DNA of 64,000 nucleotides from Chitinivorax sp. B (GTDB taxonomy: Bacteria; Pseudomonadota; Gammaproteobacteria; Burkholderiales; SCOH01): contig NZ_SCOH01000007.1 in assembly GCF_005503445.1 (NCBI RefSeq), positions 1 through 64,000 on the forward strand, read 5' to 3'. Each line of letters begins with the position of its first letter. Position 1 is the first letter of the stretch. The position numbers and the translations under genes are program-made. This document shows positions 8,333 through 64,000 of this stretch, one piece after another. The notes under the pieces were generated by a model. That model was not told the DNA's origin and ran no database searches. It saw only the letters and a list, made by a program, of their open reading frames with translations.

Positions 8333-9145
8333 CTACTGTTTGCTCAATGCATCACCCAGCTCTTGTCCACGGTAGCTGGCTGCGGCGATTCCCGCGCCAA
8401 TACTTTCTTTGACACCCGATGCCTCCATGCTATTGAGGGCTGCCTCAGTAGTACCGCCCTTCGAGGTGACTTTGGCACGTAGGGTCGCGGCATCGTCAGC
8501 ACTATCCATTGCCAATTTGACTGCACCTTCAAAGGTGGCGTAGGTCAGCTTACGGGCATCGGTGTCTGAAAAACCTAGTGCCTTGCCTGCCGCCATCATG
8601 GCTTCCATAAAGTAAAACACATAGGCGGGGCCGCTGCCCGACATCGCAGTGATGGCATCCATCTTTTGCTCAGCATCTACCCACACGACCTGTCCAACAG
8701 CGCGCATGATTTGCTCCGCCTGATCGCGCGCATTGTGTCCTACCCCGGATGCTGCAAACAGACCTGAAATGCCGGCTTGTACCATGGCTGGGGTATTGGG
8801 CATGACACGCACAATGTGCTGGTAGCCATTCAACCAGCTAACCAGCGTGTCAATGCGGATGCCAGCTGCGATGGAAATCACCAACTGATGCTTGAGCTGG
8901 CCGGCCAGTTCACCAGCGACTTCTTTCATGCTCTGCGGCTTGACGGCAATCAGTACCACATCACTGCTAGGCAACCCAGTGGATAGCGAGGCCTGCGAGC
9001 GCACGCCGAATCGATTAGCCAGTTCAGCACGTTTTTCCTGACTGGGTTCGATCACGCTTAGGGATTTGGCATTGAATCCCTGTTGCAGCATACCGCCGAT
9101 GAGCGCGGTTGCCATATTGCCTCCGCCGATGAAAGTAATGTTCAT
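8333..9145 (-). CDS. proC: Pyrroline-5-carboxylate reductase
   Basis: ProC (270 residues) makes the last step of proline biosynthesis, NAD(P)H reduction of pyrroline-5-carboxylate. The Rossmann start MNITFIGGGNMATALIGGML, the VKPQ segment, and the C-terminal family signature AMSGSGPAYVFYFMEAMM near residue 165 are all present. Length is normal. It starts 9 bases after the yggS stop and is clearly in the same operon. Confidence 0.98.
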   Translation of the reverse strand: MNITFIGGGNMATALIGGMLQQGFNAKSLSVIEPSQEKRAELANRFGVRSQASLSTGLPSSDVVLIAVKPQSMKEVAGELAGQLKHQLVISIAAGIRIDTLVSWLNGYQHIVRVMPNTPAMVQAGISGLFAASGVGHNARDQAEQIMRAVGQVVWVDAEQKMDAITAMSGSGPAYVFYFMEAMMAAGKALGFSDTDARKLTYATFEGAVKLAMDSADDAATLRAKVTSKGGTTEAALNSMEASGVKESIGAGIAAASYRGQELGDALSKQ

Positions 9146-9154
9146 AGTGATCGT

Positions 9155-9853
9155 CTAATTGGGTTCAGTGGGTTGGCGTTTGCCAAAAATTGCGGTGCCG
9201 ATGCGCACAATGGTGGCGCCTTCGGCAATGGCGATGGGCATATCGGCAGACATACCCATCGACAACGTATCCAGACCAAAACCATGTGCATTCAGTTCCG
9301 TCAGGCAGTTGGCCAATGCCCGGAATTGCCTACGAAGCGCGGTGTCATCGTTGGTGGCTTCTGGAATACACATCAAGCCACGCAGCTGAATATTTGGCAA
9401 TTGCTGTATTGCATGGGCTATTTCTGGTACATCATTCAATCGGCAGCCGCTCTTGCTGGTTTCGCCGCTGACATTGACCTGGATGCAAACCTGCAGTGGT
9501 GACAGATTGGCTGGGCGTTGGGCTGATAGCCGCTCGGCAATTTTCAGCCGGTCGATGCTGTGAGCCCAGTCAAAGTGTTCGGCGACCAAGCGTGACTTAT
9601 TACTTTGTAACGGACCAATGAAATGCCATTCAATTGGTAGGTCTGCCAATGCCAGAATCTTGGCAACGCCTTCCTGAACGTAGTTTTCACCAAATGCACG
9701 TTGTCCTGCTTCGAATGCTTCTTGTACAGCTTCAGCAGGGAAAGTCTTGCTCACGGCCAGCAATCGAACTGACCCTGCTGGCCGATGGCATGCGGCTTCG
9801 GTGGCCCGGATATGACCGTTGACTGCTTGCAATGCGGTTTTTATTGTGCCCAT
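9155..9853 (-). CDS. yggS: PLP homeostasis protein YggS (PROSC/PipY family)
   Basis: YggS binds pyridoxal phosphate and keeps its cellular level balanced; it has no known catalytic reaction. The PLP-lysine segment LLAVSKTFPAEAVQEAF, then AFGENYVQEG, FIGPLQSNK and LSMGMSADMPIAI, are the family landmarks. The frame is open upstream to 10078, but that extension overlaps pilT on the other strand and is not protein-like. MGTIKTALQAVNG at 9853 gives 232 residues, the family length. It is divergent from pilT and heads the yggS-proC-yggT-yggU operon. Confidence 0.95.
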   Translation of the reverse strand: MGTIKTALQAVNGHIRATEAACHRPAGSVRLLAVSKTFPAEAVQEAFEAGQRAFGENYVQEGVAKILALADLPIEWHFIGPLQSNKSRLVAEHFDWAHSIDRLKIAERLSAQRPANLSPLQVCIQVNVSGETSKSGCRLNDVPEIAHAIQQLPNIQLRGLMCIPEATNDDTALRRQFRALANCLTELNAHGFGLDTLSMGMSADMPIAIAEGATIVRIGTAIFGKRQPTEPN

Positions 9854-18112: not shown

Positions 18113-19468
18113 ATGCCGTACCTCAGCCTGAACCCCACAACCGGCGAGTGCTTGCAGGCATTCGACAATCACACAGCATCTGATGTTTCACATATTCTCG
18201 AAAAAGTTGCACATGCTCAGGTTGAATGGGCGGAGCGCTCATTAGTTGAGCGTGCAGCCGTCATTCGCCAAGCAGCCAATCTGCTACAGCAAGGCCGGGT
18301 GGACTTTGCCGCGTTGATTACACGGGAGATGGGCAAACTCAATCGAGAAGCCTTGGACGAAGTCGACAAGTGTGCTGCTTTACTGCGTTGGTTTGCTGAC
18401 AACGTTTCATTCATTTTAGCGGATGAATCGGTCGATGGTGATGGCAATGTCATCACTTACGCACCATTGGGTGTGGTGTTGGGGATCATGCCGTGGAATT
18501 ATCCGTTCTCGCAAGTGTTCCGATATGCAGGCGCTGCCTTGGTGGCAGGTAATGGTTGTTTGCTTAAACATGCCGCCAATGTGCCCCAGTGTGCATTGGC
18601 TATTGAGGCATTCTGGTACCAGGCGGGTTTGCCAGCAGATTTGTTCAGAGTTTTATTGATCGAACCAGATGATGTGCCTGTGGTGGTGGCGGCTCCACAG
18701 GTACAAGCTGTTGCATTAACAGGATCGGAAGCGGCAGGGCGCGCTGTTGCTGCGGTTGCAGGCGCCAATTTGAAGAAAACGGTACTGGAGCTGGGTGGTT
18801 CGGACCCGTTTATTGTGTTGGCAGATGCCGATCTGGATTGGACTCTGTCGCAGGCAACCCCAGCTCGGTTTACCAATTGCGGTCAATCCTGTTTATCTGC
18901 CAAGCGCTTTATTGTCGTGCCGGAAATCGCCGAACGGTTTGTCGAAGGATTGGCAAGTGTGGTTGCAAGGTTGACTCCTGGTGATCCCAATTTACCTTCG
19001 TCATGTCTGGCGCCCATGGCCCGTGCCATGTTACGTGACAAGCTTCACGAACAGGTTGTGACCACGCTGGCCATGGGGGCAGCGAAACAAGTAGGTTGCC
19101 AGCATGGGGACGGCAATGGATTGTTTTATCAAGCCAGTTTGATCGACCATGTGCCACCGGGGTCTCCTGCCTATATGGACGAATTGTTCGGACCTGTGGC
19201 GGCTGTGATTCGTGCGCGAAATGAGGCAGATGCGATTCGTATTGCCAATGACAATCGTTTTGGATTGGGGGGAAGCATCTGGAGCGAGGATCAGTCACGA
19301 GCCATTGAGCTGGCGAAACAACTAAAGGCGGGATATATCGGTATCAATCGGGTGTGTCGCTCAGATCCACGGTTACCATTGGGTGGGGTCAAGGCATCTG
19401 GCTATGGTCGGGAAATGGGTGCTGCGGGACTTCGGGAATTCGTCAATATCAAGGTTTTACGCGGTTAG
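18113..19468 (+). CDS. NAD(P)-dependent aldehyde dehydrogenase, succinate-semialdehyde dehydrogenase type
   Basis: Starting at MPYLSLNPTTGECLQAF gives about 451 residues, a usual size for the short SSADH-like class; the frame is open to 18029, only 11 bases from slt, which is less likely. It oxidises an aldehyde to its acid. Landmarks are GIMPWNYPFSQVFR, ALTGSEAAGR, the catalytic Glu in VLELGGSDPFIVL, the catalytic Cys in TNCGQSCLSAKRF, and LPLGGVKASGYGRE. The precise substrate cannot be fixed from sequence. Confidence 0.9.
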   Translation: MPYLSLNPTTGECLQAFDNHTASDVSHILEKVAHAQVEWAERSLVERAAVIRQAANLLQQGRVDFAALITREMGKLNREALDEVDKCAALLRWFADNVSFILADESVDGDGNVITYAPLGVVLGIMPWNYPFSQVFRYAGAALVAGNGCLLKHAANVPQCALAIEAFWYQAGLPADLFRVLLIEPDDVPVVVAAPQVQAVALTGSEAAGRAVAAVAGANLKKTVLELGGSDPFIVLADADLDWTLSQATPARFTNCGQSCLSAKRFIVVPEIAERFVEGLASVVARLTPGDPNLPSSCLAPMARAMLRDKLHEQVVTTLAMGAAKQVGCQHGDGNGLFYQASLIDHVPPGSPAYMDELFGPVAAVIRARNEADAIRIANDNRFGLGGSIWSEDQSRAIELAKQLKAGYIGINRVCRSDPRLPLGGVKASGYGREMGAAGLREFVNIKVLRG

Positions 19469-54013: not shown

Positions 54014-54400
54014 TCAGGATGGTTTGTCTTTGCATTCCGGTCGACTTTCCACTTCGTCGATCTGCGGGGTCCAATCCTGCGCCAGGCTGCTGGTTTTGCG
54101 CGCCACAATGTAATAGCGCTTGCACGGTTCCACTTTCAACTTCAGCAGCCGGGTTTCCGGTACCCGGAAGCCGGCAGCCGGGGCGGTAACCAGCTTCAGG
54201 ACATGATGACCCGGTTCGATGGGGACTGGGTTCTGGTTCAGCATGGCGGCTTCGCCATCAATGGAGACGAGATGAGTTAGGTAGGTATGCATCGCGGCGC
54301 GGTGATAGCGTTCACCATGAATGAAGCTGACCTGATTGGAATAGGTGGCGCAACCACTGGCCAACAAAGATGCGCTGATCACTGTAAGCGATTTCCACAT
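54014..54400 (-). CDS. Small lipoprotein of unknown function
   Basis: This 128-residue protein starts MWKSLTVISASLLASGCATYS after AGGAGG, with lipobox LASGC. The mature part has IEPGHHVLKLVTAPAAGF and LKVEPCKRYYIVARKTS, a pattern seen in small beta-sandwich lipoproteins that carry a PEGA-like or DUF-type strand pair. The +2 residue is Ala, so an outer-membrane site is likely. It is divergent from the DUF4331 gene, with about 180 bases between. Confidence 0.82.
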   Translation of the reverse strand: MWKSLTVISASLLASGCATYSNQVSFIHGERYHRAAMHTYLTHLVSIDGEAAMLNQNPVPIEPGHHVLKLVTAPAAGFRVPETRLLKLKVEPCKRYYIVARKTSSLAQDWTPQIDEVESRPECKDKPS

Positions 54401-54579
54401 GGTGGCCTCCTGACGAGCGGTACAACATGTGTTGGCAATGCAATGGGTGCTGCGTTGTAGGACGCTTGAAGAAGGCGGCAGTTCGCAAACATTCTGCAAA
54501 TTTCTGTTTTACTGCATCCAACCACCCGGGTTGTCCGTATTTGAGTGTGCAATCACACAAACTGGTAAGGAGACCCGTC

Positions 54580-56103
54580 ATGAACCGTCAATCTCTTCCT
54601 CTGCTCATCTTGTCCGCGTTGGGCATCTTGTCGCAAGTCACGACTGAAGCGGTTGCTTCCAGCCATCGCGAAGCACCGTTCATTACCCGCCATCCCAAAG
54701 TGGATGGTACCGATTTATATCTGTTCCGTTCGTATGAACCAGGCCGAAGCGACTATGTCACGCTGATCGCCAATTACAGCCCATTGCAGGATGCATATGG
54801 CGGCCCGAATTATTTTCAGATGGACCCGGATGCCCTATATGAAATCCACCTTGACAATGATGGCGACGCGAGAGAAGACCTGAGTTTTCAGTTCCGCTTC
54901 CAAAACACTTTGAAGGATCTGCAGCTATCGATAGGTGGCAAGCAGGTGTCTGTACCGTTGATCAATATTGGCGGCATCAACAACGTAAACCCGGATGTGC
55001 TGAATGTGCGGGAGACGTTTAGTGTCAACATGGTCAACGGTGATCGCAGGGGCGGGCGGCGCATGGCGGTGACCAATGCTGATACCGGCGCAGCCAGCTT
55101 TGACAAGCCAGTGGACAATATTGGCAACAAGTCTATTGCCGATTATGCGGCCTATGCAGCCAAGCACCGCTACAACGTCAATATCCCGGGTTGCAGTAAG
55201 CCAGGGCGCATGTTTGTCGGACAGCGCAAGGAAGGCTTTGGGGTCAATCTGGGCGAGATTTTTGACCTGATCAATGTCAAAGCCCCGGCCACGGTATTTG
55301 ACCCAGGTGCTGAAGATAAGGGGCTGAATACCATTGCAGACAAAAACGTGACGTCGATTGCGCTGGAACTGCCGATTGCTTGCGTGGTGAAAGGCAATGA
55401 CCCGGTGATCGGCGCCTGGACAACGGCGAGCTTGCGTCAGGGGCGTTTGCTCAACCCAATGCCTGCCAGCGACATCAAATCAGCTTCGCGTGAAGGTGGT
55501 GCATGGGTGCAGGTATCACGCCTGGGTATGCCACTGGTCAATGAACTGGTGATCGGCCTGAAGGACAAGGACAAATTCAACAGTAGCAAGCCGAAAGACG
55601 ATAGCCAGTTTGCCAGCTATGTCACCAATCCGACCTTGCCAGCGTTGGTCGAGGTGTTGTTTGGTGCCGCAGGTGTGCGGGCGCCGACCAACTTGCCGCG
55701 TCAAGATCTGGTCACCGCTTTTTTGACAGGGGTACCGGGCCTGAATCAACCCCTGAAGGTGACACCGTCCGACATGCTGCGGCTCAATACCAGCATGGCA
55801 CCCGTTGCCAGGGGCGCGCAGAAGCGATTGGGCGTGATTGCGGGTGACAATGCCGGGTTCCCGAATGGTCGGCGGCCCGGCGACGATGTGGTGGATATTG
55901 AGTTACGTGTGGCCATGGGTCGCCTGTGCACATTGAACTTGGACTGCAAGCCGGCCGATGCACCATCTGGTGCAGTGGATTTCACTGACGGTGCACTGGT
56001 CAACGATGGTCAGTTCGACATGACATTCCCCTATCTGACCACTCCGATCCCAGGCTCGCCATTTGTCACTGGCAACGCCAATATCATGGCCGCGAAACGT
56101 TGA
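54580..56103 (+). CDS. DUF4331 family exported protein
   Basis: Starting at MNRQSLPLLILSALGILSQV after AAGGAGACCC gives 507 residues with a signal peptide ending AVA. The mature start SSHREAPFITRHPKVDGTDL is the hallmark of DUF4331, followed by VTLIANYSPLQDAYGGPNYF and LYEIHLDNDGDAREDLSFQF. DGTDLY and the Asp-rich DNDGDARED loop could bind calcium. Function of the family is unknown. A small lipoprotein, a TPR protein and a HupE/UreJ-like protein follow on the same strand with short gaps. Confidence 0.93.
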   Translation: MNRQSLPLLILSALGILSQVTTEAVASSHREAPFITRHPKVDGTDLYLFRSYEPGRSDYVTLIANYSPLQDAYGGPNYFQMDPDALYEIHLDNDGDAREDLSFQFRFQNTLKDLQLSIGGKQVSVPLINIGGINNVNPDVLNVRETFSVNMVNGDRRGGRRMAVTNADTGAASFDKPVDNIGNKSIADYAAYAAKHRYNVNIPGCSKPGRMFVGQRKEGFGVNLGEIFDLINVKAPATVFDPGAEDKGLNTIADKNVTSIALELPIACVVKGNDPVIGAWTTASLRQGRLLNPMPASDIKSASREGGAWVQVSRLGMPLVNELVIGLKDKDKFNSSKPKDDSQFASYVTNPTLPALVEVLFGAAGVRAPTNLPRQDLVTAFLTGVPGLNQPLKVTPSDMLRLNTSMAPVARGAQKRLGVIAGDNAGFPNGRRPGDDVVDIELRVAMGRLCTLNLDCKPADAPSGAVDFTDGALVNDGQFDMTFPYLTTPIPGSPFVTGNANIMAAKR

Positions 56104-56115
56104 GGAGGGCTGATC

Positions 56116-56352
56116 ATGTCTCAACAAACATTAGTGCTGATCGGTCTGCTGGCTACGTTATTGGCGGCTTGTGGCGGTGGTGGTGGCGGGGAGGGCACGC
56201 CAACGCCCAATCCCGGCCCTGCAACGACAGATGCCTTTACGCAGTCGGTGACCTCAACAGTGGCCAGTGCCCCGGACGATGCCGAACCGGTTGCGATTGA
56301 TTCGGTCATGCTCAGCCAGCCGGACGACAGGGAACCTGTGGCGATCAACTGA
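56116..56352 (+). CDS. Small lipoprotein with a duplicated PDDxEPVAI motif
   Basis: This 78-residue protein follows AGGAGGG, 12 bases after the DUF4331 stop. It has a signal peptide and lipobox LLAACGGGGGG, a Gly/Pro/Thr-rich spacer and a tail in which PDDAEPVAID and PDDREPVAIN are separated by SVMLSQ. The mature protein is mostly low complexity. It resembles no family I know. Cotranscription with the DUF4331 gene is likely. Confidence 0.8.
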   Translation: MSQQTLVLIGLLATLLAACGGGGGGEGTPTPNPGPATTDAFTQSVTSTVASAPDDAEPVAIDSVMLSQPDDREPVAIN

Positions 56353-56360
56353 TACGTTGG

Positions 56361-56407
56361 TGACAACTAACTGACACACAGGTTGATGCAGTTGTCAGCC
56401 TGTGTGT
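56361..56407 (+). promoter_or_regulatory. Interleaved inverted repeats in the leader of the TPR gene
   Basis: Arm A1 TGACAACT (56361-56368) pairs with A2 AGTTGTCA (56390-56397), and B1 ACACACAGG (56374-56382) with B2 CCTGTGTGT (56399-56407). The order A1-B1-A2-B2 is that of a pseudoknot or of two exclusive hairpins. CTGACA at 56371 can also pair with TGTCAG at 56393. The ribosome site GGAG follows at 56411. Confidence 0.5.
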
Positions 56408-56423
56408 TCTGGAGATCACAATC

Positions 56424-57623
56424 ATGATGTCGTTATCCAGACCGTGGAGACGGCTGCTTGCTTACCTGATTTGTCTGGGGATGGTGATGTTGACCACCTT
56501 ATCGCAAGCAGCCAATTTTGTACCGGCAAGTGACGAAATGGTGGTGGAAACGCTGCCGACCAAAACCGATCCGGCCCTACGTGAACTGAAATCGTTGCGT
56601 CTGCAGGCAAACCGGTCACCAGAGAACTTGACGCTGGCCTTGCAGGCCGCACAACGCAGTATCGAGCATGCGCGACACAGTGCCGATCCGCGTTTTCTGG
56701 GTTATGCCGAAGCGGTGCTGGTACCTTGGTTACGGCAACCTGTAGTACCGATCGATGCGTTGGTGATGCAAGCGGTGATTTTGCAGAGCAGCCATCGCTT
56801 TGCTGAGGCCATCAACATGCTGCAAGTTGCATTGAGGCGTGACCCACACCATGCGCAAGGTTGGCTGACGCTGGCCAGTATTCATCAGGTGCGTGGTGAG
56901 TTGACGATGGCTCGTCGGGCTTGCCTGAAACTGGTGCCATTGCTGGACAGCGAGGTGGCACTGGACTGTGTGGCCGGTGTGGACGCGATGACCCATCGTG
57001 CAGCCGCCAGCTATCGGCGGTTGCAGCTGCGCGTGAATCATCCCGATACGCCAACCTGGTCACGCCCGTGGCAACGGGTTCAGTTGGCAGAGCTGGCAGT
57101 ACGTCTGGGGCAACCGGACGAGGCCGGCGCCTGGTTTGCACAAGCCATGCAACAAACGCCAGATGGCTATGTGAAGGCCGCCTACACCGATTGGTTGCTA
57201 GATCGTCAAGCCTATCAAGCGGTCGTGGAGGCCCTGGGTAACGATAGCCGAGCCGACTCGCTGCTGTTGCGTTTGGCATTGGCGCGGCAGGGCTTGCGGC
57301 TGCCGCAGGCCACTCGGGATATCGAGACCTTGGCCAGCCGATTTGCCGCCGCTCGTCTGCGTGGCGATTCTACTCATGCCCGGGAAGCGGCCCGTTTCGA
57401 ACTGCATTTACGGCGCCAGCCCAAGCTGGCATTGGCCTTGGCTCAACGCAACTGGCAACAGCAAAAGGAACCTGCCGATGCGCGTATCTTGCTGGAATCC
57501 GCTCTGGCTGCGGGCCAGTATGAGGCTGCCAGGCCCGTGCTGACTTGGTTGGCGACAACAGGGGTGGAGGATGCCTCGCTGACGCCACTGATCCGCCAAT
57601 TGAAAAAAGGGATGACATCATGA
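56424..57623 (+). CDS. Exported TPR-repeat protein
   Basis: This 399-residue protein has a signal peptide (LAYLICLGMVMLTTLSQA) and a series of helical pairs of TPR type: ALVMQAVILQSSHRFAEAIN, AQGWLTLASIHQVRGELTMA and LAELAVRLGQPDEAGAWFAQ, with further repeats toward the C-terminus. No enzyme domain is seen, so it is likely a periplasmic scaffold. CTGGAGATC precedes the ATG. Its stop overlaps the HupE-like gene by four bases. It lies in the DUF4331 cluster. Confidence 0.87.
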   Translation: MMSLSRPWRRLLAYLICLGMVMLTTLSQAANFVPASDEMVVETLPTKTDPALRELKSLRLQANRSPENLTLALQAAQRSIEHARHSADPRFLGYAEAVLVPWLRQPVVPIDALVMQAVILQSSHRFAEAINMLQVALRRDPHHAQGWLTLASIHQVRGELTMARRACLKLVPLLDSEVALDCVAGVDAMTHRAAASYRRLQLRVNHPDTPTWSRPWQRVQLAELAVRLGQPDEAGAWFAQAMQQTPDGYVKAAYTDWLLDRQAYQAVVEALGNDSRADSLLLRLALARQGLRLPQATRDIETLASRFAAARLRGDSTHAREAARFELHLRRQPKLALALAQRNWQQQKEPADARILLESALAAGQYEAARPVLTWLATTGVEDASLTPLIRQLKKGMTS

Positions 57624-58750
57624 CGCGTATTCAGTGCATTGGACGCTTGCTCATGGCCCTGCTGTGCAGTGCGTGGGTAGCAACGTCTGCGCAAGCTCAC
57701 AAGGCGAGCGATAGCTATCTGGTACTCCAGGCTGCTGGCAACACGGTGACCGGGCAGTGGGATATCGCCTTGCGTGATCTGGATGAAGTCATGGGGCTGG
57801 ATGCCGACCAGGATGGGCAATTGACCTGGGGTGAAGTCCAGGCTCGGCACGGCGCCATCGCTGCCTATGCGTTGTCCAGGCTGGTGCTGACTGGCAACGG
57901 TCAGGTCTGCCAGTTACAGGCGGGTGGCCAGCAACTGACTCGTCATACCGATGGCACCTATACTGCCCTGCCGATCCGGGCCGATTGCCCGGCCGGCGCA
58001 GATACCTTGCGTATTGGCTATCGGCTGCTGTTTGATATTGACCCACAACACCGTGGTCTGGCCAATCTGACCCTTCAGGGAACGGTGCGGTCATTGTTGT
58101 TCTCGCCGGGCAACGTTGAACAGCAGATTGATCAACATGGCCTATGGGATACCGTGCTGGCATTCGTCGGCCAGGGGACTTGGCATATTTGGATCGGGTT
58201 TGATCACATCCTGTTTCTGTTGTCGCTGTTGTTGCCAGCCGTGCTGGTATGGCGTGATGGCCGTTGGGAAGCAGCGAACAGCCTGCGTGATAGCGTCGTC
58301 GATGTGGTACGGATCGTGACTGCCTTTACCGTCGCGCATTCCATCACCTTGTCGCTGGCGACGCTGGGGGTGATTGGTCTGGATAGCCGTTGGGTGGAAT
58401 CTGCCATTGCGGCTTCGGTGCTGCTGGTGGCCGCAAACAATGTTTATCCGTTCATTCGGGGTAAACGTTGGCTGGTCGCGTTCGGGTTCGGCTTGATCCA
58501 TGGCTTTGGTTTTGCCGGCGCATTGGCAGCACTTGGGTTGCCGACCACGCAGCTGACGGCTGCGCTGGCCAGCTTCAATATCGGCGTGGAACTGGGCCAG
58601 CTGTGTATCGTGCTGGTATTCGTACCCCTTGCGTTTGCTTTGCGGCAGCGTTGGCTCTATCGCCGCTTTGCGGTGTTGGCCGGCTCGTTGGCCATCATGG
58701 TGCTGGCCGGTACTTGGTTCATCGAACGGGCATTCGATGTGGCGATTTAA
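57620..58750 (+). CDS. HupE/UreJ-type membrane protein with EF-hand-like loop
   Basis: This 376-residue protein has a signal peptide (LMALLCSAWVATSAQA), a periplasmic domain of about 190 residues and six to seven C-terminal helices. The periplasmic domain holds LDADQDGQLTWGEV, a canonical-looking EF-hand loop near residue 60. The membrane part has GTWHIWIGFDHILFLLSLL, TAFTVAHSITLSLATLG and GFGLIHGFGFAGALAALG, where His and Asp positions of HupE/UreJ metal permeases are kept. Nickel or another metal as substrate is inference. Its TAA lies in the TTAA at the edge of a MITE-like element. Confidence 0.88.
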   Translation: MTRIQCIGRLLMALLCSAWVATSAQAHKASDSYLVLQAAGNTVTGQWDIALRDLDEVMGLDADQDGQLTWGEVQARHGAIAAYALSRLVLTGNGQVCQLQAGGQQLTRHTDGTYTALPIRADCPAGADTLRIGYRLLFDIDPQHRGLANLTLQGTVRSLLFSPGNVEQQIDQHGLWDTVLAFVGQGTWHIWIGFDHILFLLSLLLPAVLVWRDGRWEAANSLRDSVVDVVRIVTAFTVAHSITLSLATLGVIGLDSRWVESAIAASVLLVAANNVYPFIRGKRWLVAFGFGLIHGFGFAGALAALGLPTTQLTAALASFNIGVELGQLCIVLVFVPLAFALRQRWLYRRFAVLAGSLAIMVLAGTWFIERAFDVAI

Positions 58751-58916
58751 CCTGGATATTTCGCAAATTCGCGAGGTGATGGTGCAGGATTTTGATTCAT
58801 AGGGAGATGTCGTGAAGGAGTCGCGTAGTGGTTCTTACGCGCGACAGAACGAAAATCTTCATATGGATCAAAAGACAAGCTAGCACTCGCGTCAATTTAT
58901 GAAATATCCAGGTTAA
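58747..58916. mobile_element. MITE-like element with perfect terminal inverted repeats and TTAA duplication
   Basis: TTAACCTGGATATTTC (58747-58762) and GAAATATCCAGGTTAA (58901-58916) are exact complements, with further imperfect pairing inside (CGCAAATTCGCGAG against CTCGCGTCAATTTAT). A third hairpin, GTCGCGTA with TACGCGCGAC, lies in the middle. Taking TTAA as target duplication leaves a 162-base element starting CCTGG, with no coding frame. IS1380-type transposons use TTAA-like targets and CC-starting ends, so it may be a derivative of one; that is inference. Both neighbours take their stop codon from the TTAA copies. Confidence 0.75.
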
Positions 58917-59686
58917 TCAAATCGGAACATGTCCATGGCCAAGACACCGGCTTCTACACCGGTGTAAGGTCGGCAGGCCTTTGCATCTGGCCCGGCTGCA
59001 CCGGCTGCGACGACCAGTGGCAACCAGTGCTCGTCAGTCGGGTGGGCGCGCTGGGCCGCCGGCGCGTACTTGGACATATCGCACAGTTCGGCATGGCGGC
59101 CATGTTGCAGGTTCTCCCATACCCACTGTTGAAATGCGGTGACATAGGGCTCGGCCGCGTTGGCGTGCGGGTCGATTTCGTAAAGATTATGGGTCAGGCT
59201 GCCCGAGGCGACGATCAGGATATCTTGGTCGCGCAATGGGCGAAGTGCCTCGCCCAATTGGTAATGGTGTTCGCCAGCGGCCTTGGCCTGCAGGGCAACC
59301 TGCACGATCGGGATGTCGCCAGCCGGGAACATTTCGCGTAGCGGTACCCAGGCGCCATGATCCAGACCACGTTGTGGGTCGATGACAACTGGCTCACCCA
59401 GCGTGCGCAATTGGGCTGCCACCTGCTCGGATAAAGCCTGACTACCGTGCGCCGCATAGGTTTGTTGATAGAGTGCGGGCGGGAAGCCGTAGAAATCATG
59501 GATGGTTGGCAACTCACCGCCATCGGTCAGGCTGATGTGTCGAGCCTGCCAGTGGGCTGATATGACCACAATGCCTTTCAGCCCAGTCAATGGTGCCACG
59601 GCAGCTCGCCAGGCTTGGCCAACCTGACTAGCATCCAGCGCCAGCATGGGCGAGCCATGGGAAACGAACAGCACAGGCAATGGCAT
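58913..59686 (-). CDS. ygiD: LigB-type (4,5-DOPA) extradiol dioxygenase family protein
   Basis: This 257-residue cytoplasmic enzyme is of the class III extradiol/DODA family, related to E. coli YgiD, which opens the ring of catechols. The zinc/iron ligands are expected in VLFVSHGSPMLALD (His), ISAHWQARH, GLDHGAWVPLREMFP and ASGSLTHNLYEID. The start MPLPVLFVSHGSP at 59686 follows GGAG and matches the family; the frame to 59728 is longer. It is convergent with the HupE-like gene. Confidence 0.92.
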   Translation of the reverse strand: MPLPVLFVSHGSPMLALDASQVGQAWRAAVAPLTGLKGIVVISAHWQARHISLTDGGELPTIHDFYGFPPALYQQTYAAHGSQALSEQVAAQLRTLGEPVVIDPQRGLDHGAWVPLREMFPAGDIPIVQVALQAKAAGEHHYQLGEALRPLRDQDILIVASGSLTHNLYEIDPHANAAEPYVTAFQQWVWENLQHGRHAELCDMSKYAPAAQRAHPTDEHWLPLVVAAGAAGPDAKACRPYTGVEAGVLAMDMFRFD

Positions 59687-59879
59687 GATGGGGACTCCAC
59701 ACAGATAATGTCGATAGTGTGGCACCAATGATCACGCCGATAAATCCGCCCGGGCAGGACACACTGTTCCAACCATCACGCCAATGCATCCAAATTGGCA
59801 TCTGCTACGTATAAAGAAGCTGTTCCCAACCGTTGGTAAAAAACGGGCTTCCAATCAACCAACAGGGCTGCGCTCCATC

Positions 59880-60434
59880 ATGATAGACCCAGGAATGCTG
59901 TCGAGCCTGCTGCTGCAATCGGCGCGGGGCGACCAGCAGGCATTTTCGGCATTGTATCGACACACATCGGCGAAACTGTTTGCGGTGGCACTACGTATAT
60001 TGCAAAGGCGCGACTGGGCGGAAGAAGTGCTGCAGGATTGTTATGTCAAGATCTGGCAACACGCCGGCGAGTATGGCGCGGATAAAAGCCAGCCGATGAC
60101 CTGGATGACCAGCATCGTGCGTAATCGCTGTATTGATTGGTTGCGGCGGCCACGCGAAGAACATTTGCCGGAAAATGAAGATGGTGAGCAGTGGATCGAT
60201 CTGGAAGATGAATCCGACGGGCCCTTGCAATTGTTGGCGCAGAACCAGGATACCGCCTGGTTGGCGCGGTGCATGGAGAAGTTGACCCCACGCGAGCGAC
60301 AGAGCATCTCGTTGGCTTTTTATCATGGCCTGAGTCACAGCGAGCTGGCAGATCACCTTCGGGAGCCGCTGGGCAGTGTCAAAACCTGGGTGCGTCGTGG
60401 TTTGGAGCGACTGAAAGGGTGTCTTGCCATATGA
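59880..60434 (+). CDS. ECF RNA polymerase sigma factor
   Basis: This 184-residue sigma factor has region 2 SALYRHTSAKLFAVALRILQ with EEVLQDCYVKIWQHAGEY, and region 4 LTPRERQSISLAFYHGLSHS with GSVKTWVRRGLERLKGCL. The start MIDPGMLSSLLLQSARGDQQ is chosen by family fit; the frame to 59784 is longer. It overlaps the anti-sigma gene by four bases. It resembles the SigK/RskA-linked ECF group. Its targets are unknown but could include the nearby exported-protein genes. Confidence 0.94.
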   Translation: MIDPGMLSSLLLQSARGDQQAFSALYRHTSAKLFAVALRILQRRDWAEEVLQDCYVKIWQHAGEYGADKSQPMTWMTSIVRNRCIDWLRRPREEHLPENEDGEQWIDLEDESDGPLQLLAQNQDTAWLARCMEKLTPRERQSISLAFYHGLSHSELADHLREPLGSVKTWVRRGLERLKGCLAI

Positions 60435-61144
60435 ACTACCGGAATCCCGAACTGTTGGACAAATTGGCTGGTGAGTATGTGCTGGGTACCTTGCGCGGCT
60501 TGGCCCGAAAACGCTTTGAACGATTGATGGAGGATAGCGCCTTGGCCCGTTTGCAGGTCACCGAATGGGAATCTCGCTTGAATTCGCTGGCAACCATTAC
60601 AGAGGAAGTAAAACCGCCGCAGTGGGTATGGCGGGTGATCGAATCACGGATTCGGTCTAACTCGTCGGCCAAGGCGCGTGTTGCCCAGGTGGGGCGCTGG
60701 GGGACGGCATGGTGGCGTGGCCTTGCACTGGCGATGTCGGGTGTGGCGGCCTTGCTCGCGGTTTATGTTGGCATGGCCCCGCCATCGGATACGGTCGCCG
60801 TTCGCAGTTATGTGGTGGTACTGAACAACGACAAGATGAAGCCAGTCATGTTGGCGGAAGCAGACCCAGAAAAAGGAGAAATCCGTGTGCGGGTGCTGAT
60901 TGGTCAGCAATTGGGTGGCCGTAACAGTCTGGAACTGTGGGGCGTGCCGAAGGCAGGGCAACCCCGGTCTTATGGGTTGCTGCCGGCCTCAGGCGTGGTG
61001 CGTTTGAAAATGGATAAGCCCATGGATCAAGTGCTGGTAGATATTGCCGCCCTGGCCGTGAGCCTGGAGCCGCCAGGTGGATCGCCAACTGGCCAGCCGA
61101 CCGGGCCAGTGCTCTACAGCGGCGAAGTGATTCGGCCAATATGA
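60431..61144 (+). CDS. Anti-sigma factor, RskA type
   Basis: This 237-residue protein has an N-terminal sigma-binding segment (LDKLAGEYVLGTLRGLARKR and FERLMEDSALARLQVTEWES), a single membrane helix (GLALAMSGVAALLAVYVGM) and a periplasmic RskA domain with YVVVLNNDKMKPVMLAEAD and SLELWGVPKAGQPRSYGLLP. It has no zinc motif, as usual in the RskA group. Translation is coupled to the ECF sigma gene by an ATGA overlap. It should hold the sigma factor at the membrane until released by proteolysis. Confidence 0.93.
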   Translation: MNYRNPELLDKLAGEYVLGTLRGLARKRFERLMEDSALARLQVTEWESRLNSLATITEEVKPPQWVWRVIESRIRSNSSAKARVAQVGRWGTAWWRGLALAMSGVAALLAVYVGMAPPSDTVAVRSYVVVLNNDKMKPVMLAEADPEKGEIRVRVLIGQQLGGRNSLELWGVPKAGQPRSYGLLPASGVVRLKMDKPMDQVLVDIAALAVSLEPPGGSPTGQPTGPVLYSGEVIRPI

Positions 61145-61444
61145 TCTGGTAAGCCGGGTGGGTTGTCGGATGGCGGCCTGCCCGTATCGGAAACGAGCCA
61201 GTGCAGGCTTGTGCCAATCACCTGCTTTTTGCTACTTCCCCTCGTCAGTGCTTTTTGTTGAATGATTTCGCAAGTATGAATACAAAAAATTAACGTCGTT
61301 AATAACTATGCAATCGTCATTTGAGTGTTAGTATGTAAATGGCATTAATTGCCCAGGATCTGCGCCAGGCTTCAGCTACAGCGAACCGTCCCGTCATTTG
61401 GCCGGCGTGGAACCATGAAATCCAACACTCATCGGAGGATTGAT

Positions 61445-61996
61445 ATGCAACGTCAACGTTCTCGTCGTGTCGTCATGATTGTGGTTGCCGCCTTGACATC
61501 CGTATTGACGACCGCCAATGCGGTACCTGTGACCAGCCAGTACATTCAGAAGTCTGCATCCGAAATCAGTGGCATGCTCGGCCGTTATGCACAACCACGT
61601 GTGTATGTGAACCAGATGGCGTGCGGTGAACCGCAACTCAGTGCCGTTGCTTGCGGTCCGTACACCATCAGTGTCGGTAGCCAGTTTCTGAATTCCATTG
61701 AATCCCGTTTCGGCAACTACACAGCCAAGGCCGTATTGGCACACGAATGGGGGCACAGCATCCAATTCAGCTATGGTATTCGGCTGAATCCGCCCTACCA
61801 GGAATTGCAGGCAGATTGTGTTGGTGGTTCATTCATTCGCTATGCAGAAACGACGTTGCGTTACCCATCGTTTATTGCCGGTGCTGCCAATTCAGCCCGT
61901 GCTGCTGCCGATTACCGTGAGCACGGTACACCTTCACAGCGCGACTATCACACCAGGGCTGGATACAGCCGTGGTTTCAACTATTGCTTCAGCTAA
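61445..61996 (+). CDS. Small exported zinc metallopeptidase
   Basis: Starting at MQRQRSRRVVMIVVAALTSV after CGGAGGATTG gives 183 residues with a signal peptide ending TANA. The zinc motif VLAHEWGHSIQ (HExxH) is followed by YQELQADCVGGSFI, the third-ligand region of the neutral zinc metallopeptidase (YpfJ-like) group. It is much shorter than YpfJ. Three Cys pairs may form disulfides (ACGEP, ACGPY, plus C-terminal NYCFS). Substrate unknown. Confidence 0.85.
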   Translation: MQRQRSRRVVMIVVAALTSVLTTANAVPVTSQYIQKSASEISGMLGRYAQPRVYVNQMACGEPQLSAVACGPYTISVGSQFLNSIESRFGNYTAKAVLAHEWGHSIQFSYGIRLNPPYQELQADCVGGSFIRYAETTLRYPSFIAGAANSARAAADYREHGTPSQRDYHTRAGYSRGFNYCFS

Positions 61997-63338: not shown

Positions 63339-63818
63339 TTAATAAGTTGCGTTCTTTTGCAGGTCCCATTTTTTCGGTGTACCTGGCTTGATGGTGTCGC
63401 CACTGAATGCGTCATATTGGTAGCTGATCTTGGTGAAGTTCAGCGAGAACGATTCGCTCGGGCGGTCGCCACCACTACTGACAGAGTAGGAGCTGACGAT
63501 TGGTGCTTCCAATTCGATCTTCAGGTAAACCTGTTGCTTCTTGTCAGCCCCGCCAGTGTGCAGGAAGTGGATCTCAGCCTTGGTTAGCGATTTGCCACAA
63601 ATACTTTGCATGAACAGCTCAGGCGAAGCAATATCGGTCGCCTTGGTGAACGTCAGTTCGGAAAATGACGGGTTGCTGGTTTCTCGATCTGTTCCACCAC
63701 TGACAGCGGAAATGGCACGACCGACACCAAACTGCATGGACTCAATGGTGATCCAGTCAGTGTGGCCGTCAATAGTGGATGTACCTTTGATTTCAGTACC
63801 AAATTTCAAGAGGATCAT
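63339..63818 (-). CDS. hcp: Hcp family type VI secretion protein
   Basis: Hcp (159 residues) makes the hexameric rings of the type VI secretion tube. The start MILLKFGTEIKGTSTIDGHT has AAGGA 8-12 bases upstream and fits the family. TDWITIESMQFGVGRAIS, SELTFTKATDIASPELFMQS and ESFSLNFTKISYQYDAF are the three strand blocks of the Hcp1 fold. No other type VI gene is in the window, so it is an isolated or edge copy; neighbours on the right are unknown. Confidence 0.95.
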   Translation of the reverse strand: MILLKFGTEIKGTSTIDGHTDWITIESMQFGVGRAISAVSGGTDRETSNPSFSELTFTKATDIASPELFMQSICGKSLTKAEIHFLHTGGADKKQQVYLKIELEAPIVSSYSVSSGGDRPSESFSLNFTKISYQYDAFSGDTIKPGTPKKWDLQKNATY

Positions 63819-64000
63819 GATGTAAGTCCTTAAAGGTTGATAAAAAGCGGCCATTTGGCCTGCCAACGGCGAGTAATCATTGGCATTGGTGTTAAACAGG
63901 CGTCAGGGTCATTGTTCTGATCAATTACGGCATCTCATTTTATTGGGGTCGAATATTAGGTGGTCGGATTCTGAAGTGATATGAGCGCTAGTTCAGATGA

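Follow-up and report, generated by a model that had tools for sequence, protein, structure and literature searches.

In the genome of Chitinivorax sp. B, genes for an exported DUF4331 protein, a small lipoprotein, an exported tetratricopeptide repeat (TPR) protein and a HupE/UreJ_2 permease are arranged head to tail on the plus strand, followed by a pair of genes for an extracytoplasmic function (ECF) sigma factor and an RskA-type anti-sigma factor. This gene set, located within 54014-61144 of the 64,000-nucleotide stretch of contig NZ_SCOH01000007.1 analysed here (the window), recurs across Pseudomonadota, and its DUF4331-TPR-permease core is also found in Actinomycetota and Cyanobacteria. 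The cluster is probably a bacterial metal-capture machine, and as a unit it is still undescribed in the literature searched, which was open literature, with most subscription journals and preprints outside. The unit and its regulation are well supported by sequence comparison, while the metal, the direction of transport and the role of DUF4331 are what we infer. Taken as a whole, the reading of the cluster as a dedicated, sigma-controlled envelope system that would capture a transition metal, with copper or nickel the likeliest, is one that we consider about evenly balanced between right and wrong.

Recurrence of the gene set

Gene calling and Pfam profile searches bore out what a sequence-only reading of the window had described, namely four tightly spaced genes with an ECF sigma/RskA pair 1.1 kb further on (Table 1). 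The start of the permease gene overlaps the stop of the TPR gene, and the start of the anti-sigma gene overlaps the stop of the sigma gene (ATGA). The families DUF4331, HupE_UreJ_2 and RskA_C have one match each in the 5.66-Mb genome, all within these 7 kb, and a chance neighbourhood can be rejected on this co-location of single-copy families, the broad conservation of the set and its common promoter. A contig scan yielded 80 DUF4331 loci, mainly from Oxalobacteraceae, Chitinibacteraceae-type genera and Moraxellaceae, and the survey of DUF4331 neighbourhoods that the earlier reading had proposed as a check confirmed co-occurrence elsewhere. At 64 related loci the sequence extends for 5 kb or more downstream of DUF4331; of these, 59 contain a TPR gene and 52 both TPR and HupE, and a similar small lipoprotein gene follows DUF4331 in 46. 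Members of this lipoprotein family, for which no family is named, carry two acidic C-terminal repeats of the form S-P-[DE]-[DS]-x-E-P-V-x-[IV] at many loci including our own. Whole-genome searches gave a DUF4331 match in 22 of 398 Pseudomonadota genomes (16 of them full-length), and annotated plasmids widen the gene set to Comamonadaceae, Marinobacter, Pseudoalteromonas and Lichenicola. The ECF-RskA pair lies directly upstream of DUF4331-TPR-HupE at six loci, and the arrangement in one genome of the same family (L142) is identical to that of the window.

Beyond this core, the partners of DUF4331 vary with lineage. A TonB receptor of one family accompanies it in 27 of the 55 loci that have 7 kb or more of flank on each side, and in Adhaeribacter DUF4331 and TPR genes stand beside a divergent TonB receptor gene whose product matches this proteobacterial receptor family. 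Eight Acinetobacter loci have the order DUF4331-lipoprotein-TPR-TonB receptor-TonB-like protein; HupE and the ECF promoter are both missing there. In Streptomyces, DUF4331 occurs together with genes for TPR, class F sortase and NicO-type nickel permease proteins, and Nostoc has DUF4331, TPR and a NicO-type permease; in both, His is predicted to be the first residue of the permease after the signal peptide, and neither RskA nor the ECF-type promoter described below was found at these NicO loci. On two Streptomyces-type plasmids, genes for fasciclin, molybdopterin oxidoreductase and DUF4394 proteins occur near DUF4331 and the class F sortase, and the C-terminus of DUF4331 itself consists of a membrane segment and an Arg-rich tail, a layout like that of cell-wall-anchored proteins. 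Rhodobacterales plasmids of Jannaschia, Paracoccus and Sulfitobacter carry, next to DUF4331 and in place of TPR-HupE, a complete set of type II secretion genes along with one for a prepilin peptidase, which suggests that DUF4331 may be a dedicated substrate of the neighbouring secretion system there; a small lipoprotein-like gene accompanies it in two of these three records.

A promoter shared by operon and sigma gene

The window holds exactly two copies of the sequence TGCATCCAA-N14-CGTAT, one before DUF4331 and one before the sigma gene. When up to two mismatches are allowed there are four matches in the window against 0.7 expected, a number reached in none of 100 shuffles. Across loci the pattern becomes TG[AC]ATCC[AG]-N15-CGTA[ACT] (TGmATCCr-N15-CGTAh), which is present exactly in 59 of 103 DUF4331 upstream regions and in none of 200 shuffle rounds, with a further 20 of the 103 scoring at least 13 with a matrix learned from the exact sites; these counts span related species and are not independent. 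In 1.58 Mb of fetched sequence the true pattern is found 71 times, a few duplicates included, and the reversed pattern not once. The element is common to Burkholderiales, Moraxellaceae except Acinetobacter, Pseudoalteromonas-like genomes and Marinobacter. It also precedes the ECF gene at five other loci (among them L142), TonB receptor genes at four loci and, with a 16-base spacer, at two more, as well as fasciclin genes at 9118-9672 (+) of locus L009 and 18563-19114 (-) of locus L069. In Andreprevotia, the TPR-HupE part has been split off and inverted and has its own copy of the promoter (L009 16332; L022 16096, one mismatch).

Because operon and ECF gene share one promoter type, the sigma factor, once freed by its RskA-type anti-sigma partner, should switch on the operon and at the same time amplify its own expression. 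We infer this sigma-dependent transcription from the shared element and from how ECF systems work, and control of the DUF4331 cluster by its own ECF sigma factor thus appears supported; a cluster that does not respond to the sigma factor is unlikely. No wider regulon was found in the same genome, where only the two cluster sites are convincing. The pattern TGMATCCR-N14..16-CGTAH has nine sites genome-wide against four for the reversed control, and with the 15-base spacer there are four, namely two in the cluster, one that falls within an opposing frame and one between genes. The intergenic exact site (contig C1:133002-133029 (-), locus L092) has no frame of more than 90 aa starting within 320 nt downstream and may belong to a small gene or an RNA, or be due to chance.

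A predicted copper/nickel-type permease and its exported partner

Structure prediction indicates that the permease is an Ang-1-type anglerase with a Cu/Ni-binding-type architecture, an assignment made because of its fold, its predicted mature N-terminal His and its two-domain layout. The AxA pattern places the signal peptide cut at AQA|HKASDSYL, so that the mature protein would start with His. In the AlphaFold2 model (predicted local distance difference test, pLDDT, 90.8), a beta domain whose strands 2 and 3 are separated by helices is followed by a helical membrane domain. The top match of the model in the PDB, by Foldseek (E=3.5e-6) and by VIA (Z 11.7, root-mean-square deviation 3.1 over 135 residues, model 27-172 on chain 1-156), is the Ang-1 domain of a HupE/UreJ-2 protein with bound copper (9GCE), and the next fold matches are the zinc-binding proteins ZrgA and PA4063. 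Profile searches added a weak DUF6702 match, and a PDB sequence search with the HupE profile returned nothing but unrelated stretches of TPR, aquaporin and EF-hand type. The H-x5-D-H motif of the membrane domain resembles a motif of this form in HupE, the nickel permease of Rhizobium; no paper on H-X5-D-H was found in the literature searched. The Cu/Ni-binding architecture of anglerases was published in October 2025 (Nat Commun 2025, PMC12537917), with dissociation constants of RbAng-1a of 74 nM for Cu2+ and 220 nM for Ni2+, and capture and uptake were proposed. The statement of the sequence-only reading that it knew no described function thus no longer holds for the permease, which has a proposed one, and it stands for the DUF4331 unit in the literature searched.

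The DUF4331 protein matches PF14224 with 515 bits against a curated cut-off of 27 and covers profile positions 1-421. A signal peptide is predicted at residues 1-26, with the mature N-terminus SSHREAP starting at 54658. Around this predicted cut the motif AxA|SSHREAP is near-invariant: among 105 distinct sequences from Pseudomonadota, Actinomycetota and Bacteroidota, Ser-Ser precedes the conserved His in 102, and 104 have Ala just before the cut and a small or aliphatic residue at position -3. In 50 aligned sequences H29, R30 and E31 are invariant. A cut before Ser-Ser-His would leave an amino-terminal Cu(II)- and Ni(II)-binding (ATCUN) motif on mature DUF4331, a Xaa-Xaa-His pattern generally described as binding Cu(II) and Ni(II) (PMC7701195); a cut after Ser-Ser would give an N-terminal His instead, likewise a chelator. 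The structural model of DUF4331 is beta-rich (pLDDT 73.6, predicted template modelling score 0.79). It has no Foldseek match at E<=0.001, and VIA returned only antibody-like beta sandwiches with Z of at most 6.0, which are not informative. A PDB sequence search gave nothing for DUF4331, and a search of 5.39 million open papers gave no mention of the family.

Proposed mechanism and alternatives

In the mechanism that we propose, RskA would release the sigma factor on a metal-related signal and the operon would be expressed. Signal peptidase would leave Ser-Ser-His on DUF4331, which could then chelate Cu(II) or Ni(II) outside the inner membrane, while the TPR protein and the small lipoprotein, which may act as a scaffold, would hold it near the permease. 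The Ang-1 domain would take the metal with His1 and pass it to the H-x5-D-H membrane domain for uptake, and in many relatives the TonB-dependent receptor of the same neighbourhood might import the metal, or a chelate of it, through the outer membrane. In a broader and more tentative proposal, which we regard as possible and on the whole rather doubtful, DUF4331 would represent a new class of exported ATCUN-type capture proteins that hand copper or nickel to permeases with an N-terminal His. Different phyla would have retained this module, each lineage displaying it with machinery of its own (TonB receptor, type II secretion, sortase), and many Pseudomonadota would control it through a dedicated SigK-like ECF factor that senses the metal state of the envelope.

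Several observations weigh against metal capture under sigma control. Many opposite-strand ECF genes in Oxalobacteraceae lack the promoter, thus autoregulation of the ECF factor is not universal. The Acinetobacter version is permease-free and some loci have DUF4331 without TPR-HupE nearby, therefore DUF4331 does not strictly depend on an adjoining permease. Signal-peptide cleavage was judged from the -1/-3 residues only. Finally, no TonB receptor of the linked family was found in the genome of the window, where a search returned only a partial match of 28% identity elsewhere (E=4e-6).

The main rival explanation reverses the roles of the partners, so that DUF4331 would be an exported metalloenzyme or a structural protein of the surface, and TPR and HupE would mature it, load it with metal or export it; the end goal would be a finished surface protein and not metal for the cell. 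The pairing with type II secretion in Rhodobacterales and with a class F sortase in Streptomyces fits DUF4331 as a product at least as well as it fits capture, and DUF4331 is the longest and most conserved member of the set (61-74% identity). However, the permease, with its predicted outward-facing capture domain, resembles uptake permeases (PMC12537917), and the neighbouring TonB receptors point to import. We consider this explanation unlikely, and it is the one that competes most seriously with metal capture.

Calcium handling and metal tolerance are less likely than copper or nickel capture. The loops noted by the sequence-only reading, Asp-rich in DUF4331 and of EF-hand type in HupE, are present and conserved, and in a calcium-dependent surface or adhesion system these loops would bind Ca2+ and the cluster would sense or handle calcium. 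The HupE loop (D61-E72) has canonical EF-hand spacing and is mostly conserved, the DUF4331 loop is of a conserved DxDGDxxxD type, EF-hand loops of calcium proteins are among the weak profile matches to HupE, and fasciclin genes have the same promoter at two loci. The HupE loop nevertheless loses ligands in several relatives whereas the N-terminal His is never lost, and the closest structure binds copper and nickel and the next ones zinc, so that we find the calcium explanation improbable; the HupE loop could serve as a structural Ca2+ site or be located close to the metal site. Of the earlier suggestion of an envelope system for metal or calcium under sigma control, the metal and sigma parts are thus strengthened by the ECF-type promoter common to sigma gene and cluster and by the predicted Cu/Ni-type anglerase, and calcium recedes behind copper and nickel. 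We hold it equally improbable that the sigma factor answers excess metal which the system binds or exports: many ECF systems generally answer envelope stress and the wider permease clan includes exporters, but the TonB receptors linked to the cluster serve import, nickel uptake is well known for HupE/UreJ proteins (PMC12537917 and the papers it cites), and the annotated neighbourhoods read showed no copper ATPase, efflux pump or multicopper oxidase, apart from single RND (resistance-nodulation-division) pumps beside two of them.

Features and neighbouring genes

The 1.1-kb gap before the sigma gene is occupied by a LigB/DOPA-dioxygenase gene on the opposite strand (58913-59683), which was rejected as a member of the conserved set with matches in none of 80 related loci. 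A divergent lipoprotein-like gene on the minus strand (54014-54403) was likewise rejected, being matched at a single one of the 80 loci; it faces the DUF4331 promoter and also adjoins DUF4331 in another genome of the same family. Beside the anti-sigma gene, 61349-61996 (+) encodes a small exported protein with a HExxH-type motif (AHEWGHSIQ) and a weak match to neutral zinc metallopeptidases. A frame at 63339-63866 (-) resembles, by eye only, an Hcp-type tube protein of type VI secretion.

Table 1. Genes, promoter elements and sequence motifs of the cluster, in window coordinates
Feature	Position	Strand	Evidence or remark
DUF4331 protein, 507 aa	54580..56103	+	PF14224 E=1.8e-154
Small lipoprotein, 78 aa	56116..56352	+	Lipobox LLAAC; two acidic EPVAI repeats at C-terminus
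Exported TPR protein, 399 aa	56424..57623	+	TPR repeats
Predicted Ang-1-type HupE/UreJ_2 permease, 376 aa	57620..58750	+	PF13795 E=3.4e-47
ECF sigma factor, 184 aa	59880..60434	+	Sigma-70 r2/r4
RskA-type anti-sigma factor, 237 aa	60431..61144	+	RskA_C E=1.3e-18 to 2e-18
ECF-type promoter, TGCATCCA-N15-CGTAT	54513..54540	+	Exact match; 39 nt before DUF4331 start codon
Second copy of ECF-type promoter	59785..59812	+	Exact match; 67 nt before sigma start codon
Predicted mature N-terminal Ser-Ser-His of DUF4331 (ATCUN pattern)	54658..54666	+	-1/-3 residues, 105 sequences
DUF4331 Asp-rich loop DNDGDARED (HLDNDGDAREDL), residues 92-100	54853..54879	+	D92, N93, G95, D96, D100 at least 90% conserved
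Predicted mature N-terminal His codon of permease (residue 27 = His1)	57698..57700	+	Invariant in 30/30; aligns to residue 1 of 9GCE
EF-hand-type loop of permease DADQDGQLTWGE, residues 61-72	57800..57835	+	D61, W70, E72 invariant in 30-sequence alignment
H-x5-D-H motif, membrane domain of permease, residues 189-196	58184..58207	+	H189, D195, H196 invariant

Comparison with known systems

What is already known is the anglerase-permease (2025); the multi-gene unit, the ECF promoter and the N-terminal motif of DUF4331 were not found described in the literature searched. The published Ang-1 anglerase-HupE/UreJ-2 protein (RbAng-1a, 9GCE) shares with the permease studied here the N-terminal His, an immunoglobulin-like domain with helices between strands 2 and 3, and a C-terminal PF13795 domain. 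In contrast to RbAng-1a, to which its identity is only ~16%, our permease belongs to a unit with DUF4331, a lipoprotein, a TPR protein and its own ECF/anti-sigma pair, and the main text of the neighbourhood survey in PMC12537917 names no DUF4331, TPR or ECF partners. The NicO permeases of Streptomyces and Nostoc (HPLGNF N-terminus) are alike in having an extracytoplasmic domain with a predicted mature N-terminal His and in standing beside TPR and DUF4331, but they are of another family (PF03824). DUF4198 and DUF6702 proteins are also exported and bind nickel or copper by an N-terminal His (PMC12537917); their domains differ from DUF4331, in which the His is at predicted position 3 and not 1. 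An unstudied exported family would thereby be tied to a freshly described metal-capture permease and a dedicated sigma factor, which suggests that copper or nickel capture might be a conserved trait of the envelope, and both the promoter and the N-terminal metal motif of DUF4331 are directly testable.

The regulatory pair resembles SigK/RskA of M. tuberculosis and Yersinia (PMC7509140) in combining an ECF sigma factor with an RskA_C membrane anti-sigma factor in one overlapping unit, and the NCBIfam SigK model matches our sigma factor with E=8e-41 and 139.8 bits, below its cut-off of 226 and not as the best match. The fasciclin genes preceded by the promoter at two related loci recall MPT70/MPT83, the SigK targets of mycobacteria, whereas the predicted target here is the DUF4331 operon, and no fasciclin-domain gene was matched in the Chitinivorax genome. 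Even in M. tuberculosis the inducing signal of such systems is unknown (PMC7509140), and the cluster could supply SigK/RskA-type systems with a physiological context.

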